64,000 nt of DNA, taken from positions 9,575,001-9,639,000 of the forward strand of contig OX485807.1 in NCBI GenBank assembly GCA_950295325.1, written 5' to 3'. The notes beneath the pieces are model-generated. The model ran no database searches. It had not been told where the DNA came from and worked only from the letters and a program-made list of their open reading frames with translations. The position numbers and the translations under genes are program-made. Source of the DNA: Polytrichum commune (taxonomy: Eukaryota; Streptophyta; Polytrichopsida; Polytrichales; Polytrichaceae). This document shows positions 46,601-58,118 of this stretch, piece by piece; position 1 is the stretch's first letter; each line of letters begins with the position of its first letter.

Positions 46601-49600
46601 CTGGAACCTTAAAATCTCCTCATCTGCAATGATTGATCAATACTGAACAACATCAACGACACCGTGCAATGCCCTCTAAATTGGACTGGTGTTTCAGTAG
46701 GTCTGACTATTCAAACATGTCAGGATTGAGTGAGCTCGCCTCACGCTCACCTCAAGCTACAAATGTCCCCTCAGTGTTGGTCACTTGTTAAGACCTGCAG
46801 AAATGATACGTGTGTCAATGCTGATATCTGTAACATGAGGATCACTCAGTGATTCGGAAGATTTAAGGTGCGATCGATCCTTGTCCATCTTCAACCTATT
46901 CCGGCTAATCTTATTCTGTACACAAGCAACAAAATATCAGTATCGACAACTTTCAAACCTCGCAGGGGGCTGCCATTGATCTGCTTGTACACTCTGGGAT
47001 TTGCTAACTCGGTCCTCCAAGGCCTTGCGGTTGAGTAGCTTCTTCAACTGGCTCACAACACCGAAGGTCCACCGAGTTAACAAATAGTCCACACTTATAT
47101 ACACCTAAGCAGCCTGACAGTACTCCAAAGGTTTTCTCGAGCACATCTATAATGAAAGTAGATAACAAACCACATAAAATCTGATATCACATCTCACATT
47201 TATTTGAGAAAAAATCTTCGAGTTAGCATTTTGGAAGATCACATGCTCATGTCAATGTCTCTCAAGTGGCTCAAACTGAGAGCAGATCAAATTGTTGGTA
47301 TATCAGGGCTGGCAAGTTACTGAATGAAGCTCCATGCACTAGAGCTGGGGAATGATTCGGGTTTGAACACCATCCGGTAGACATGTATGTGTGGATGGAA
47401 GTAGAGCTGGATATAATTATCAAAGTTAGGTCTGACTGTTTGACCAACCAATTCATTTCTTTGCCGGCTTCCCATTTGAACCCAAGCAAGGAATTAAAGA
47501 CGGTTGCAAAAGACATATATGATGTCGCATTGTGGAGATAATTACAAACATTTTACACAACCCTCAACCCTTAATGACACAGATAACTCAAAGATTGAAA
47601 ACATGACGCAAAATTTTCCACCTGTATCAACATCGAGAAGCAAAGTCAGAACTAGCAGTCCAGTTAGAGAATTTCGTGTTGATAGTCCCAAACAAACAAG
47701 TAATCCATGTTCCTTGTTCGTCAGCCGGGCAAACAACCAGCAAACGCAAAAAGAGAGCACATTGTGTACATGAATTGCTTCGTAATTTTCTTGATATTCT
47801 ATTCTTGATGTATCCATGGCCTAATGCAAAACGTTCAGTGAACTTATATCTACGCACAAACTGTTATAATACCATTCCAAACATATTCGAGGACCAAAAA
47901 TTGCAAGGACGAAATTAGAGTACTTTAATAAAAGTAGCCACGCGCGATCTGTTTCACCGGTTAAGATGGACAATCCGTAATCCATTCCGTAGGGACCCCC
48001 TCACAAACAACACAAAAAAGTCATATCTGTTGTGTTCGAATTCACATTTGTTGCTACTGAGACGAAAAGAAGGAAAACTAAATAACGGTCATAATTCCAA
48101 CTCAAAAGGAAGGCAAGGACCAGTCACAAGTACTTCACCAATGCTCCATTTCACATTGACTTTTGACACTCCGAAAATTATCTTCCCGCTTTCAATCTTG
48201 ACATACTTTTCCAAGATGCCTGTGACCGCAGATCTGTGACTTCAGTGACAAACTGTCCGGCAAAGCTTTCTCACAACTTTATCCAGTTGCTATGACTGCA
48301 ACTCTCAACTGTTTCGTAACGTTTACCATACTTGAAGCACATGGGATATCAGTGAACTAAATGCGCTTCCATTCAGAACATCTCGTCTTCTAACGGATAT
48401 CGCATTGACAATAGAATTCAAGCTTCATGCACATTACACTGTGTACACTCCCAACAGTTCACTTCTCATGAGAAGATAGGATCAAAATTGACTAAAAGTT
48501 GTCTGATAAAAGCGCACTTTCAAGCACAGATGAACGGGTTTTGTCAATCCCTTTCGAACGTTTCTCTGTGCTTAAATGTGCGCAATTTTCAGATAACATT
48601 TGGTCAAGAAAGCTCTATCGGACGGAGATTGCCAAATACGTACCAACGCGAATGAAAACCATGAAGTTTCTTCTACTTGGAAAAATGTCTTAAGCGTACC
48701 TCAAAGGGTCGCAGTACATTCCTCTCAAGTTGAATCGCATCCGCAGCTGTGGTCACATTTCTCAGCTTGTAGTAGGCCAGTTCGAAGCTTATGATGTAAA
48801 GAACCAGACATGATTATCATCGTTGATACCGATACAACACCAGAATCAAGAGCGTGTCGGTACCAGCAGATACCAAAGAATCGTCCCTAAATCGTCGACT
48901 ATATTTCAGATTACATCAGAGAATGTCTTACTCAACCTGATTCTCAATGCACAAATCGCCTACAAACGTTAAGAACAATAACTGGACTTTCAGCTTTTGT
49001 ATAGTCTCACATCTGACCTTTTGAGGTCATACCTGGTATGAATCCATGACAATTACAGTAATAGAACTCCTTGCCGAGAACTGTGTGTACGCACCTGCAA
49101 TATGTTACCATATCCAGCATAGGCATAGTTAGGTGAAAACAACGTTCATCAACAAGGTATGTTGATAGAGTAAACTCAATTGCCGCTGTGTATGCAAATT
49201 TCATTAAACAATCAGCCAAAACATCCTCTCGAAGGACGTAAGATTCTTCTACCAATGCCACCGCGACTGCACCGTGTAAATTTAGATACTGACATCATGA
49301 TGAATATCAGATTGAGAGACTTCTTGACGAACAATATAACATTATGAAGAGAAACACATATCATTTTGGTAGCAATTCGGGTTGGCAATTCTCATGAATG
49401 TAATGGTATGGTCAATAATCTGCTTGATGCACTTCCCTGCTAAATAACCTTACCTTATGAGTCCTTGCAAGTTTCACCACCACCATCGAGTTATCGCCTC
49501 GAACATGCTGGAAACAACGCCATTATTTCCCACCACCAACCAGATCTGGGAAAAAAAATAAGTTGCTCAATGGCCGAGCCAATAGGAAAATATTCGATGA

Positions 49601-52600
49601 ACAAGGGCATTCGAAATTGGACGTGGAGATGACATAACAACACAAACAGAAATTCCTACTCAACAGAGACAGAAAAACCTCGCGACGTCGAACTATACAC
49701 TGGCAAGGCAGTTACTCGCCACGTTTAACTGCACCCTTTTATTTCACAACTGCAAGTGACTCGTCTGTTCAACTAGCTGCATGTGCTGCATTTGGTACTG
49801 TCTCGAAACCATACTCCCAAGCTCATACAACAAATTTTGCACCTACCAGTGTCAGTGCTCTCCACGAAGACAACATACAGCATTCTGAACAAACTCCACT
49901 CTACAGTGCACATATGGCCAGCAGAGGAGAACCTCATCGACGACTTATATACAAACAATCTTACGATACATGGAGAAAGTAAATTCACAGACAACACAGT
50001 TGTGCGCAACTTCAATATTCTGTGTATGAAGCTACCACAGGCCTGCATTGAAACCTCGATCAGCCCTATTGACATACATTGGAGGTCCATCTCCCATTGG
50101 AAATTTTACACCTCTATATCTGTTTAGCAAATGCCGTACAAGAACTTAGCAGGATTGGAAAGGAAATATATAGAGAGACGATTAATACATAAAATTTTAA
50201 TCATCCTATCATATAATTCTCAAATTTTAGACCATGTCACCAAGTCTGGTTGTGTGAGCGTCCACGTCCACGATACAAGACCAGCCAAAGAACTTATAAA
50301 CAAGATCTAAAGAGGAAACTTCTAATAGATGAGACAACAACACTTCGGTAACTAAGGGACGCAGCTGAATGTCAGCTTACACTAGCTGAAGTTCGTCAGT
50401 ACAACTTAAATTCGTGCTACATTATTAGTCAGCGATGATAGCTTCACGCTTCAACACACCAATCGCTATGCAAATGTGAGCAGCTATTATCAAATACCTA
50501 ACAACATATGATAAACTTTAATATTGCGAAGGATTGTTAGTGATATATGACATACTCAAAACCAATAACTCCTCACCGATCGACATGACCGCCACATGCA
50601 TGTGTGACGTGAGAGAGTCGACAACTACTTTCTAAACGACCACTGTGGTCCATAAACCCTGTAGACATAATTCTTTACATCATTATACCACCCTTAACAG
50701 ATTCTGTTTGAAATTGCAAACCAAGCTACCATGAGCATCTATGAAGCATCCAATCGTGTGAAACAAGTGTGGGATGCTTCACAGGCAAAACAACAGTGAG
50801 AACTGAAGACGAGGGATAAATTCTGGAAATTGCCAATATCCATTTGCACTAAGCTGTCGGAAGGGGGCTTGCAAAGCAGGTTTGAGTAATGCCCTCAGAT
50901 TTGGGTACCGGCAACATAGACGGAACGAGAAGATATCTGCGGATTACACAAACTTGTTGGAGTACCAAATCACCTCCAACACTCGAATAACCAATAGTCA
51001 TCAATCACAACGCACTCCTGTCATAAAACATCTTGGTTGATTTAGTCAGCACAACAACTCGTGGATACATCACAAAGCAAATCAGCCAGCGACATTGACA
51101 CCCGACATAAGTCATGTCTGAATGACATCTTACTTTCAAAATTGCCTCGAATTACAAACAGATTAGCAAGGATGATAGATCCGGCAACAGATGTTTGAAC
51201 AAGTTGATGTCAATCAACGCCGTGTGGATTGTTGTAGTCACAACCCCAGACTAGCCTCAGTACTGCAGAGAAGACCTCCTGTCTTCGCATTCAAGAAATA
51301 TTTTGGCCTTGTAGTAATTTGTCAACAAAACTACAATAGACGGGGAAATTCATCTTGAAGTTGTTGCATCTTTTTGTCAGCAACACTACAAAGACAACGA
51401 AATTATCTTACAGTTGCTGCTTCTTGAAAGTAAGGCACGTTTTGTCTTCCTAATCCATACCCTTAGGATCTTCAACGGATCGGCAATACTTGGATAACGT
51501 TTTTGCAGAATAAATATTCCCCCTTTCGAATTATATCTTCATCTGCACAACATCACACTGTGTCAGATCATTTACTGCATCGAAAACTGAGGAACGTGAA
51601 CTCTTCATCTTCTATTTCTTACCGACTGACTAATAATCGTAGATTGGGTTGCAAGGATCCTTCGCGATATGTTCATGTCTATTTGGCGTCCTCATATGGT
51701 GAACACCTTTCTCATGCATTTCTGCATTTTGGATCTGAATTTCCTTCAGTTCCGTGCACCACTGTACTGCTGTAGGTCGCAGGAACCGCCAAGCGTCAAT
51801 TCAAGTAATTTGAATAGAGTTATTTACATAGCACGAAGTTTGTCGATCAGGACGAAGAGTCTCTGAAATACTAAAGATCTCAATTGTCTTCAAGACGTTA
51901 GCGCAAACACCTTAACACAGAATGGACGACAGGACATCTACAAGTGCTCTACGGAAAGCTCAGCGTGCCTCACTAAATGACAAAATTCGATTACCTTGTC
52001 ATATTGATACACATCACTTCTCTAGAAGCTATTTCAAGAGAAATTTGCGATGGAACTGACTGCGATTTTGTTGTGGAGTGTATTTATCATCGTGATTGTG
52101 TTAGCAGAACACTCAGGGAACACTTCGAACCCGACTTCCACTCCACATATTGATTGCGATGCATAATTACCCAGTAGTACCGACCTTGAGTGTACATATA
52201 TCAAGCTGCTCAAATTGTTGCGCGTCAAAGAGATTTTGTGGCGGTGCGCAGGCGTGGAGCTCGAAAGTGAGGTATTCTGTCAACCTTGTATAAAAATCGA
52301 ACTTTCATGGAACAACCTGCAATCATCAAACAACTTCTATTGACCAAGTCAGGAAGGAGAGTGTTAACCGGGGTCGCTCCAAACGCATGTGAGTATGTAA
52401 ACTGCATGACACAAAGAGGATTGTGCTGACATCAACCACACATCGACACCTCATCAATACAGTCATCAACAGGAAATTCTTGCAACCCTTGGCATGACTT
52501 CTTTGCACTTACGAATTGGTTAGAATAGAAATAACTTGGATAAGCATGAGTTTTCAGGATGTGCAGGTCTAGGAGAAGCATGAGCATGCATAAAACACTC
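46600..52600 (-). repeat. Copy F of the duplicated A-F locus, 5' module missing
   Basis: Module X (46.6-47.9 kb) matches 17.88-19.06 kb closely. Module Y (47.9-52.0 kb) matches copy C at several places, for example 50370-50780 with 29960-30370 and 51570-51960 with 30780-31040. The 5' module carrying the leader and the 37-bp block is not found. Instead the MIR156 gene lies immediately upstream on the same strand. In Y, the minus-strand reading near 51670-51780 contains HEKGVHHMRTPNR and copy C has HDKGVHHLKTSNR, with several silent differences. That hints at a once-coding exon. Its resemblance to a kinase catalytic loop is weak, since the Asp is absent. Confidence 0.45.
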
Positions 52601-53157
52601 TATGAGAATGCCTCAAAGCACCTCGAGGAGAAATGGCGCACTTAGCTTTGGTTGTCGGAGTCGCTTGTGCCGCTTTGTGCTGACACAGATTATCGACATA
52701 TTTTTTCGGCAACGTCGGTGTCCACTTTCTGATGAAGCTAAGAACCTCATGAATGCCTAGAGGCAGACAAGAGTGTCACACCAAGTCTCGTCGCTCCTCG
52801 GTCATTCAAGCTCGTTCCAAGAAACCCCAGCCGTCTCAAGAGATAGATGTGATATTTTAACATTCGGTCGACGCACTTGTCTGCCTCCTGATACCTTGGA
52901 GAACTTCGCTTGTGATACATGGTTGAAGTGGATGCGGGCCGTGTGACGTCAGCACCAGAAAGAAGAAGGCGAAATCATCAAACGTAGCCATGTTTGTACC
53001 AGCCGGAGCTTGTAGGTGTTCACAGAATCCCCATACATCGTTGGTGTCCGCTCAAGTTCTTTCCTCAGCCAGTGGTTTCTGGAGTACCTGCAGTTTCCAA
53101 CCCAAACTGTTACAAATTATATGTGTGTGAAGACTTACCAGGCCCGGGAGCAACAAG

Positions 53158-53258
53158 GAATGAGAAGTATGACAGCAAGAGAGTGAGCACGCATCCGCAT
53201 GTACATATTGTGTAAGTGCGCAACTGTGCTCACTCTCTTCTGTCATTCCACTCCCCCT
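53158..53258 (-). ncRNA. MIR156: miR156 precursor hairpin
   Basis: The minus strand carries TGACAGAAGAGAGTGAGCAC at 53245-53226, identical to canonical plant miR156, on the 5' arm as usual for the family. The 3' arm (53190-53170) is its full complement except for one bulged G. With 2-base overhangs the star strand would be 53188-53168. The 35-base terminal region (53225-53191) closes further by CGCA/TGCG and TTACA/TGTA pairs, and a weaker stem extends below the duplex. miR156 guides cleavage and translational repression of SBP/SPL transcription-factor mRNAs and controls the juvenile-to-adult transition. This is established for the family, and function in this organism is inferred. The plus strand would fold too, but its 5' arm is not canonical, so the minus strand is the gene. 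Confidence 0.95.
53226..53245 (-). ncRNA. MIR156: Mature miR156
   Basis: Exact 20-base canonical sequence starting with U, on the 5' arm. It is the Argonaute-loaded guide in all land plants where it has been studied. Confidence 0.93.
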
Positions 53259-53811
53259 CACACCCCCCAGTTCACACGACGACCCCATGAGGCCCACAAG
53301 TCAACCTCCGATCTTGTTTTGGTTCTTTCCACCAGCACTTTCAAGCCTGCCGTCTCTTAACCGATGCCATTTCTCCAGCTGATCGTACAACCGGAACATA
53401 CAGCAAATGATGACTCCTGCCAAGATCCCAGTGGCGGAGGAGCCGACTTCTCTCCAGAAGGTTTGATACCAAAGGAGCCCGGAGTGGCCTGAAAATAGTA
53501 GCAAAACATAGACAGTCTACGAGCGTGCTGTAAGCCACTGCCTCCCATCCCTCAATCCCCATCCTCCAGGGTTTCACCGCGGATTAGATTAGAAATTTCT
53601 AAATCTTACCTTCTCAACAGATTGGAGATTGCCGACGATAGGAGATATGAGATCCCCCCGAAAGCGTTGCTGCCAAGATCAGGTCTGGCTTAATTCTCTT
53701 CAACCCGATTCCTTCGTTTGCCTACCTGTTGTGCATTACGGATACCACAGCTACGAAGTTGGGCCTCAGCTCCTTTTGAGTGCTTGCAGCCTAACCAACC
53801 GGTCCCTCCCT

Positions 53812-54000
53812 TCACCCTATGACGGGAAAGCTACAGCCGCTACGCGGCCCATGCATCAGCGCTAGACTTGGATGAACGTCATTTCCACTCACTGAACTAT
53901 TGGAAGCGCGCCGTCCGGGAGTAGGCGCCCTATTTTCAACCGCTCTTACATTCCCCAGTGCCCACGTTCCTCCTTTCCTGCCCTGTTCCTCTCCTGGCAT
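53812..54000 (-). CDS. Small frame in the MIR156 leader
   Basis: The first substantial ATG after the presumed start site (54000) opens a 62-codon frame beginning MPGEEQGRKGGTWALG. It is basic and rich in Gly, Arg and Ser. If the donor at 53892 is used, the frame runs through exon 2 (QRFRGDLISPIVG) and exon 3 (starting ATPGSFGIKPSG) without shift, both joins being phase 0, and stops before the hairpin. That would be a protein of about 100 residues with no known domain. It could be a microRNA-encoded peptide or just a leader without stops. A tiny frame (MCFT) precedes it near 54139. Confidence 0.25.
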   Translation of the reverse strand: MPGEEQGRKGGTWALGNVRAVENRAPTPGRRASNSSVSGNDVHPSLALMHGPRSGCSFPVIG

Positions 54001-54168
54001 CTTGTTCTTGAATGCCTGTCTACCAGCTACTGCTTCAATGCGATTATATGCGAGCACAGACGTCTGACACGTCCTACAGCTAATTAGCTAACAACTTCCT
54101 CTCGACTCTCTACAAACAATAACTTAAGTAAAGCACATCTGCTCGCTCTCCTCTCCGCCTGATGACTT

Positions 54169-54200
54169 CCTCTCCTCTCCTCTCCTCTCCTCTCCTCTCT
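54169..54200. repeat. (TCTCC)n tract in MIR156 leader
   Basis: About six pentamer units, GA-rich (GGAGA) on the transcript strand, just downstream of the TATA box. GA-rich leaders or pyrimidine patches at the start site are common in plant promoters. Confidence 0.85.
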
Positions 54201-54212
54201 TGTGCAATCGTA

Positions 54213-54222
54213 TGTATATATG
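54213..54222 (-). promoter_or_regulatory. TATA box of MIR156
   Basis: ACATATATAC on the minus strand, about 30 bases upstream of the GA-rich leader and roughly 970 bases upstream of the hairpin. Plant microRNA genes are RNA polymerase II genes, most with a TATA box. Confidence 0.55.
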
Positions 54223-54292
54223 TACTGCCTACTCCAGCTTCTGCATTTCATGGCCAGCAATGGCTTTATAGGCGATGAGGGAGGGGGTGAGT

Positions 54293-54343
54293 CCAATATG
54301 ACATCATGGGGTGTTTAAGCCAATATGACATCACGCGGTGTTT
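54293..54343. promoter_or_regulatory. Duplicated CCAAT/TGACATCA promoter element
   Basis: CCAATATGACATCA followed by a GGTGTTT-type tail occurs twice (54293-54316 and 54320-54343), about 75 to 125 bases upstream of the TATA box. CCAAT is the core of NF-Y sites. TGACATCA is one base from the TGACGTCA site of bZIP factors. Factor identity is inference. Confidence 0.4.
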
Positions 54344-54400
54344 TAAATGGGTGCACTAGAAGCTAGCGGAGGAAAACAAAACAATTTTATCATTTAATTT

Positions 54401-54471
54401 GGTTGTCGATACGGGTAGGAATTGGTGGTCGATACCGGGGAGGAATCGGTCGTCAATACCGGGGAGGAAGC
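54401..54471. repeat. 24-bp minisatellite, three units
   Basis: Three units close to 'ggtggtcgataccggggagg' plus four bases. The second and third units are almost identical and the first has lost a few bases. On the minus strand they read as FLPGIDxx repeats, without evidence of coding. Confidence 0.85.
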
Positions 54472-57400
54472 ACCACTTGCAAGTAAACTTGAATTGACAT
54501 GTGGATAGTTGTTTGTAGCAAGGAGTCACCCTTTGTGTAGTGTCCACTCCAACTTGTGCACCTGAATCATAGTCAGCAATGAATCATAGTTCCCAATGTG
54601 AGATGTTGTGTTTTGAACGAGGACACTAGACATGGAAAGAACAAATAATAAATCAAGCTTTTTGATCATCGATACATTTCAACATATGAACCACGGGGAG
54701 AAGATGCCAACTTTTTGCAAGTGAACCTTGAACCAGTATCTAGACAAGTGTCCATGGGGAGGCTTATAAAAAAAATTGACTCCCATATAGGTTAATCACT
54801 GCAACACTTAGATGCTTGAAAAATGAAAGACCAGGATGTTGTGTGAGCAACCTAGAATCTACAAGAGGGCTGCTCCATTGCACTACATAGCGCAATCTCG
54901 AGTTTGCACTTGAACCATGTGGTCAGGCATGCATACCTCACCCTTGTCATAAAGTGGACCCCGTCATTTTTTTGGCTTGCTAAAGCTTTTGGGCATGGCA
55001 AAGGGGTACTACACCGCTTATGATATTTTGTCATACACCAAACTAGATGCCTAGAAGTCTCAAAGTGTCATGTCCAATAATTTCCAATATGATATTATTT
55101 GACAACATAAACAACTTTGAGAAGGGATCCCACCTTCCAATTCTAGGAAATCAACGTCAGTGGGTGATTATTTTATTTTGTGCTACTTTTGTTTTATAAC
55201 TAATATTCAAAAATCTTCATGAAAACCTAGGGCAAGACCCGGAAATCTTGGACCCACGTTAATTCCACCTAAACTAGAAAACTAGTGTGGCACATGGAGA
55301 TCATTGTCATGCTAATTTTCCACCCACACTAATTAGTGCACTATGGGTTCTATGCCTGTTCTATGCGTTCTGAGAGTGTGTTGACTTCATCCATAGAGAT
55401 AGGCCTGCTCATAGCACATTTAGCATTGATGATAATTGTGAGAAAGAATATGACTGTGGGGCATGTCGTGACTGAAAGCCTCCTCATCGTTATAACTAGA
55501 GATGTAATTCTTAGGAACAAAATTATGCGACAAGTAAGAAGGGGGTGAGTAGGTATTTAGTAGAGTCCGATTTATGGATGAATTTCCAGTCATAGTAGAA
55601 TTGCTTCATATGTACATAAATCAGTGGTGTCTATGGTAAACAAAATGGCATAAAGAGTTCCAGAAGTGAATTACTACATAGTACAAGTCTAGGCTATAAG
55701 TGAACATCACGTCTCTAGAGCATTAGTTGGACCACATTCGTTCTCAAAGCATGTTTAATCAAGGATCCCATCACATATTCTTGATTTTTGTTTTCTCCCC
55801 GACATTATGTTGCAATGTGCGATGTGTATTGGCGGCAGGTGCCACATAACCCTAATAGGTTTTGCAAGCTACACAACACTATGATAGGTTTACAACTAGA
55901 AACGATGGTGAGGCAACAATGCCTCGGTCATGTTTATGTGTTGAATAAGCAAGCGCATGGAATATCCGGGGTGATTGGATAGCAATACACCTTGTAATGT
56001 CAACCCTCTTCATCCATTGCAAAATGTCTCAAAGCCACATAACATTACTCAACGATGTGGGCCCTCGGAATATAACGGTCGGATGGTTGGGAGTTCAGTT
56101 CAAATACGAATCGTCCTACACAACTTTTCGAGCATCCAACTGTTTTATTCTGAGGGCCCATTGAACGAGCACCAACTATGGAGTAATGTTATGTGAGGCA
56201 TTCCACATGGCCCATAGAACATTGCCGTAGAGGGCTCCCGGTTTCATCTTCCACATGGAGGTCAAGTGGGTCTTAGCAAATGTGAGCATGACGTGGGGCA
56301 AATATTGAGGGGAATAACTATTTTGTGTCGGAATAGAGAGCCCTCTACAGTAGAAGACAACTTTTCCATTACAACCATCTGTTGTGACTTGGCCAACGCA
56401 ACTCATGGTGAGAATGCATAAATGAAGTTATTTTGATTGTCAACCAAAAGTTTTTTTGGTTGCGGTTTTTAGGCAATGGGTAACCAAAACCCTCAAGTTG
56501 ACAACTAAAACGATTTATATATGTATTTTCTTGCCATGAGTCGAAGTGGCTAAGTCGCGACAGATGGTCGCAATGGACAAGTTTGCTTCTAGTGGAAGTA
56601 GAGGTCCTCATGCCATAATACATTGTTGGCTTTTGTTTTCTTCGTCTCATATTTGGTGTGCAGGCATTTTTTACTCCACAGGGATGTACTTCTAGTCCAG
56701 TGAACCTTTTGACTTCTTGGACTTCAAAATCAATCTCATTTCATTTCAATAGGGGTTTCAAAGAAAAATTGAACAAAGGAAAACTCCATATCTCATGGAA
56801 TGTAGACGTTCGCTCTAGAAAATCATGCTCATTCTCCACTTTAGAGAAGGGATCCCACCCTTCCTATAGAACCCGATTTAGAACCACATGGGGACCTCAT
56901 AAACATGATTGACTTTATTCTTGGATCTCCATAATTGATACATAGAGAGCATTCTCAAATATGGAGAAATGTGTAGCATTTTACACCCCAACTGTATGCA
57001 TATACATGAACCGAAGTCTCTACCAAGGGTGAAATGCCCAGGGAGTGCACTATTCATTAAAACCAAGCATCACGTGCGTGCATGCCCCTTATTAAAATAC
57101 CCTTGTATACATTTTATTTTTGCTAAAATCAAGCAATATACTTACAAATCTCATTGCTTCAAAATACATTTCCATACGTACACAAGGGTCCAAAAACAAA
57201 TACAGAAATTGTATATAACATGTGTACAAATGTTTGGAAATGCAAAAATATGGCCCTATTATATGTATAATATCAAATCATGGATTTTTAGTTGTAAAGT
57301 CGTTACTTAGTGGATGAAAAAACACATGATTCTTGGTCCAGGTCTGACTTGAACGCGTAAACGCGTAAATGCGTACTTTACATATATTTTTCTATAGCCT

Positions 57401-58118
57401 CATGTATATCTACTTCTTGCTTAATAGCAATATGTCTCTTGTACGTACATTTTGTACATGCTTGTTTTAAATAATACCCCTTTTGTTCACCCACGTGTAT
57501 AAATACAATACTTGAACAGTGCACTCCCTGGGGTGAAATGTCTCTATGCATGCCAATTTTCAGTTGACACTATAGATCTTCAAGAATTTCCATAGGATGA
57601 TGTCCACGTGGCTACAAAAATACTCAACCTTGACTAGAAATCCATCGATTAACATTATAGATAGATAGATACGGTCCTGCCTCTTAAATATGACACGTAT
57701 GGGAAACGAGAAACTCATCATGTTATTGAGGTGGCACATATTCAATAATATGACAACTTGGACCTCTTTGTCATAATAACGAGATACTTCATGAAAACAC
57801 ACATTAGATGTTATGTCACATATACAAAATACATATCCTTCTCAAACGTCTTCACAAATATGCACATTTCTCTCATGAATCTATGTCGACTTGAAGAAGG
57901 AATCAATGGTCTACTGATGTTGTCACTTCAAATTAGCAACATCTATCTTATTGGGGCCAAAGCATGGTAAAGTGAATAAGGGTTATGTCTTGTCATACAA
58001 GTAGCCACATTTCCTAGTTATATAACTCAAAACAATAACAATGATTTATGTTAGAGTTACTAAAAAGGTGTGTCATGATGTTTTCATAAATGTATTTGCA
58101 AACTACACGATTTACATT
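54472..58118. other. AT-rich spacer, nothing recognised
   Basis: Short open frames occur on both strands (for example 56969-57310 plus and 56369-56650 minus) but none shows a known domain or clear splice context. No RNA genes were seen. Confidence 0.5.

Follow-up and report, generated by a model that had tools for sequence, protein, structure and literature searches.

The closest described system is the land-plant MIR156 family, including that of Physcomitrella, from which the same 20-nt sequence discussed here has been cloned as miR156 (PMC1838911); three MIR156 members are reported for P. patens (PMC4368373). A related family, MIR529, has sites that overlap those of miR156 in SPL genes (PMC8541648, PMC4739381). 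The 64-kb stretch of DNA that we analysed (the window) contains a locus that resembles Physcomitrella miR156a-c and Rfam family RF00073 in its identical 20-nt mature sequence, the placement of that sequence on the 5' arm, a full-length hairpin match and an SPL target, but that differs from the RF00073 family in scoring 3.5 bits under its threshold. Two MIR156 loci were found in this genome, versus the three reported for P. patens. We put the probability at roughly 95% that the locus is a MIR156 gene on the minus strand, with a transcript that would be processed by Dicer and a product that would guide AGO1 in repressing an SPL gene on contig C6. The hairpin anatomy and the SPL site are read at the level of the DNA, and transcription, dicing, loading and cleavage would be expected from the known pathway; the gene is very likely active and very likely aimed at one SPL gene. 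The locus is ordinary: it adds one member to a plant microRNA family that is highly conserved and very well known, and the window copy alone means little beyond the annotation of one more MIR156 gene. The features of the locus are as follows.

53226..53245, minus strand, 5' arm: mature miR156, TGACAGAAGAGAGTGAGCAC, exact match at 20/20 bases
53168..53188, minus strand, 3' arm: predicted miR156 star, from duplex prediction and fold, with one bulged G
53191..53225, minus strand: upper stem and terminal loop, from the fold
53143..53270, minus strand: MIR156 hairpin with extended lower stem, from the fold and the consensus structure common with the C3 paralogue
53169..53246, minus strand: profile-search match to Rfam RF00073, model positions 1-88 of 88, 58.5 bits
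53133..53139, minus strand: GGTAAGT, possible 5' splice site directly 3' of the stem, picked after looking

The sequence-only reading of this DNA had claimed an exact miR156 20-mer on the correct arm of a hairpin, with a complementary arm carrying a single bulge. Minus-strand positions 53245-53226 indeed match at all 20 bases, and TGACAGAAGAGAGTGAGCAC is the sole match with up to three mismatches in the 64-kb window (shuffle mean 0.01). The hairpin is single and stable, with the mature miR156 on its 5' arm; when positions 53140-53280 are folded on the minus strand, as that reading had proposed, the arms pair at -69.7 kcal/mol, compared with -45.2 +/- 3.87 kcal/mol for shuffles (z -6.33, 0/200 as stable). 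The shorter span 53158-53258 that had been assigned to the gene folds at -51.9 kcal/mol on this strand (z -7.35, again 0/200 shuffles as stable), and was drawn too short, as the stem common with the paralogue on contig C3 reaches about 53143-53270. In the fold all 20 bases of miR156 are paired, and the lone irregularity of the duplex is the extra G bulged on the star side, which is the forecast single bulge. Plant miRNA annotation looks for a duplex that has few mismatches and leaves overhangs of 2 nt at its 3' ends. Here the duplex has the one bulge and predicted 2-nt 3' overhangs, the latter by construction, as the star was drawn with a 2-nt 3' overhang; this gives 53188-53168 and agrees with the star 5' end at 53188 that had been forecast. 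The star of the window copy ends ...GCTGTCATA, while the mature 20-mer is common to the window and C3 copies.

Plant Dicer measures about 15-17 nt from an internal loop in the lower stem, and the consensus internal loop ends 15 nt below the miRNA 5' end in both the window and C3 copies, with a position that shifts by a few bases in single folds of each copy. In the mechanism that we propose, a minus-strand primary transcript would form the hairpin that spans 53143-53270. The first cut, by a DCL1-type Dicer, would most likely fall some 15 nt above the internal loop of the lower stem, and dicing would release the 20-nt miR156 (53245-53226) and the star (53188-53168). Once loaded into AGO1, miR156 would repress the mRNA of the SPL gene at C6:20224660-20227173.

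A default Rfam scan of the whole window listed nothing. For MIR156 this is because the match scores 58.5 bits and the gathering score of RF00073 is 62, a threshold set by the curator and not a biological defining feature; the same match has an E-value of 1.1e-11 over 801 bases. The C3 copy scores 61.2 bits against the gathering score of 62, so that a clear MIR156 can escape a default scan, both copies being just below threshold. It is extremely improbable that the locus is merely an inverted repeat, arisen by chance or carried by a transposon, that includes the 20-mer by coincidence. Four further inverted repeats with arms of at least 18 nt do occur in the surrounding 10.5 kb, but the exact 20-mer is expected only 8e-8 times per window (5e-4 per genome, both estimated from base composition), the Rfam match is full-length with the low E-value given above, and the genome search described below listed two full hairpins and no repeat family. 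The conclusion of the sequence-only reading, that this is a MIR156 gene and not a chance string, is borne out by the sequence features tested, save for the missing 3.5 bits in Rfam, and also by the paralogue and by an SPL gene with a fitting site elsewhere in this genome.

The plus strand also matches RF00073, more weakly (43.6 bits), and the plus strand of 53158-53258 folds stably at -48.9 kcal/mol (z -8.09), which could point to a function of the plus strand or of both strands, the plus transcript giving a variant of 21 nt that carries an inserted base. We nevertheless consider this highly unlikely, since over the 128-nt hairpin 53143-53270 the minus strand folds at -68.7 kcal/mol and the antisense, at -55.5 kcal/mol, is 13 kcal/mol weaker, and since the 5' arm of the plus strand differs from the canonical 20-mer. 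At the C3 paralogue, the miR156 strand folds at -67.4 vs -50.4 kcal/mol for the antisense (17 weaker). G-U pairs exclusive to the miR156 strand number 5/39 in the window copy and 6/39 in the C3 copy, and favour that strand at both loci.

The genome searched comprises 408 Mb in 64 contigs, of which seven carry nearly the whole assembly (C1-C6, from 77.9 to 44.7 Mb, and C7, at least 40.3 Mb). The exact 20-mer occurs at two places, the window locus and C3:31605276, and a MIR156 family search that scored 59 of 19,977 first-look candidates, and may therefore miss weak matches, likewise found two loci, each matched on both strands. When 3 kb around the window and C3 loci are compared with blastn, the sole alignment in the orientation of miR156 is a 116-column stretch over the hairpin; a further one, which is shorter, matches the hairpin to its reverse complement. 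All 39 consensus pairs are formed in both copies, five of them changed on both sides in this two-row alignment, as against 41-61% of cells paired in a sliding control (vs 100%). In a shuffle control of the same comparison, limited to two sequences, 12/500 reach its values. With two sequences and 12 of 500 shuffles as good, the covariation is supportive rather than strong. The sequence of the upper stem and loop has diverged between the copies, with pairing partly retained. These data also bear on whether the window locus is a relic derived from MIR156, with an intact hairpin but lost transcription, the C3 copy doing the work. The slightly better Rfam score of the C3 copy (61.2 vs 58.5) would fit such a relic, but the 20-mer is perfect, and the duplex and lower stem are conserved, whereas blastn aligns nothing of the flanks over 3 kb. 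In a relic, drift would be expected to reach the stem as well, and this possibility is very unlikely.

As for related families, the window hairpin scores 20.4 of 75 bits against MIR529 (RF00908) and 34.9 of 64 bits against MIR535 (RF00714), failing both tests; the latter is a weak cross-match, but the mature sequence in the window is that of miR156. The MIR535 of this genome, on C2, scores 84.5 bits and is over the cut-off. Separate from the window hairpin, a MIR529-like tandem pair is present at C2:55606813-55607159, on one strand and about 120 bp apart. The two hairpins score 55.9 and 38.8 bits, both below the 75-bit cut-off, and with their flanks fold at -70.3 and -76.5 kcal/mol; the pair is possibly a single dicistronic transcript.

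Genome-wide, eight 20-mers lie within two mismatches of miR156, compared with two for a reversed-pattern control. Two of the eight are the MIR156 genes and one is an SPL site. The other five (L003 and L005-L008) were rejected as MIR156 genes, as their folds, read by eye, contain no MIR156-like hairpin, and given the two matches of the reversed control most of them may be chance. L003 (C4:35903809-35903828) is the least easily dismissed in this way: its 20-mer pairs with miR156 with one G-U wobble, and it lies apart from all eight SBP loci identified and has no MIR156-like hairpin. It may be a target other than an SPL gene, a decoy or a chance match.

Searching the genome with PF03110 (SBP) gave 16 matches over the cut-off, counts that are lower bounds and that we read as eight SBP loci of two exons each. 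For each of these, about 7 kb from the SBP domain downstream was scored for complementarity to miR156, a design from which upstream, more distant or intron-split sites could escape. A near-perfect site is present in one of the eight, the C6:20224660 locus, where the site at 20226563 has a penalty of 1, with one mismatch to miR156 and 0/100 shuffled miRNAs as good for that gene. The remaining 7/8 loci have penalties of 7.0-9.5, with 13 to 76 of 100 shuffled miRNAs as good. The site is inside a 337-aa open frame in which its codons read ALSLLS, a peptide of SPL genes in other plants; scanned alone, this frame has no Pfam match. Together the SBP exons and the site span C6:20224660-20227173, the site being 3' of both exons. 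A TAG in the SBP match directly follows the CSR of its exon and lies within GTAGATG, which resembles a splice donor, and the second SBP exon is preceded by CAG, so that the SBP exons read openly to splice-like borders. A genome-wide search for the site pattern with up to three mismatches gave 47 matches vs 31 for the reversed control, which makes the 3-mismatch matches mostly noise, and no second SBP-linked site was counted in it. A 2-mismatch site at C6:19974608, 1.7 kb upstream of an SBP locus, was rejected, its frames being 21-47 aa and not reading ALSLLS. In a plant that has two MIR156 loci and a single clear SPL target, knockouts would give a cleaner test of the role of this module in mosses than in species with large families.

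On the minus strand of the same contig, C6:20000000-20006000 (L042) holds an inverted, decayed copy of the SPL gene that bears the miR156 site; it lies about 225 kb from that gene and is about 76-78% identical to it along roughly 3 kb. This copy has a T-run with an insertion in place of the miR156 site, the DNA alignment does not reach the part corresponding to SBP exon 1, and the PF03110 search listed no SBP match in the stretch. A tentative wider reading, to which we give slightly less than even credence, is that the two MIR156 genes and the tandem MIR529-like pair converge on a single SPL gene, the inverted copy of which decayed and lost its site. If true, this converging layer would be an unusually small and directly testable version of the land-plant developmental-timing module.

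Around the hairpin, the GGTAAGT directly 3' of the stem is one of four that the window carries on its minus strand, GTAAGT has a frequency of 2.6e-4 per base in the window, and the C3 paralogue has a GTAAGT (L001:1636-1641) about 54 nt past its star. Going by their motifs and positions, each may be a splice donor in the primary transcript of its locus, and they serve as a lead only. One report states that a 5' splice site in an intron raises miR163 levels, and that introns are usually downstream of the hairpin (PMC3701235). A host gene or coding overlap was considered and rejected, the longest frame overlapping the hairpin being 82 aa (stop-to-stop frames of at least 45 aa). The window had been described as otherwise lacking recognisable genes, and this holds for what was scanned: of the 11 ORFs in the window that reach 120 aa, 10 were searched with Pfam and gave no domain over the cut-off, the best score being Sina_TRAF with 15.3 of 24.8 bits. 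A local microRNA cluster was also rejected, an Rfam E-value scan of 48000-58000 giving no second credible family. The inverted repeats at 48488-48607, 56348-56594 and 56058-56160 have arms of 28-67 nt and no Rfam family over threshold; a MIR1446 match that overlaps the first of these was dismissed at 21.4 of 70 bits (E 0.95).

Finally, the assignment of the sample to a land plant, made from the window alone, agrees with the SBP-box genes, the MIR529-like pair, MIR535 and the LHC genes in the genome. The region C5:1751760-1846160 holds 14 LHC-domain matches in uninterrupted frames on both strands over about 95 kb, each scoring 177.1 bits. The best PDB matches of the LHC protein are 9vfj, in a chain labelled LHCI-2, followed by 7xqp and 8htu, which we take to be from P. 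patens. The eight SBP loci, the MIR529-like hairpins with MIR535 and this LHC protein point to a moss, as do the seven large contigs. NAS has one match in the genome, which fits a place in Polytrichales but does not decide it; NAS genes are reported from this order and from a few further groups of mosses (PMC12454661).
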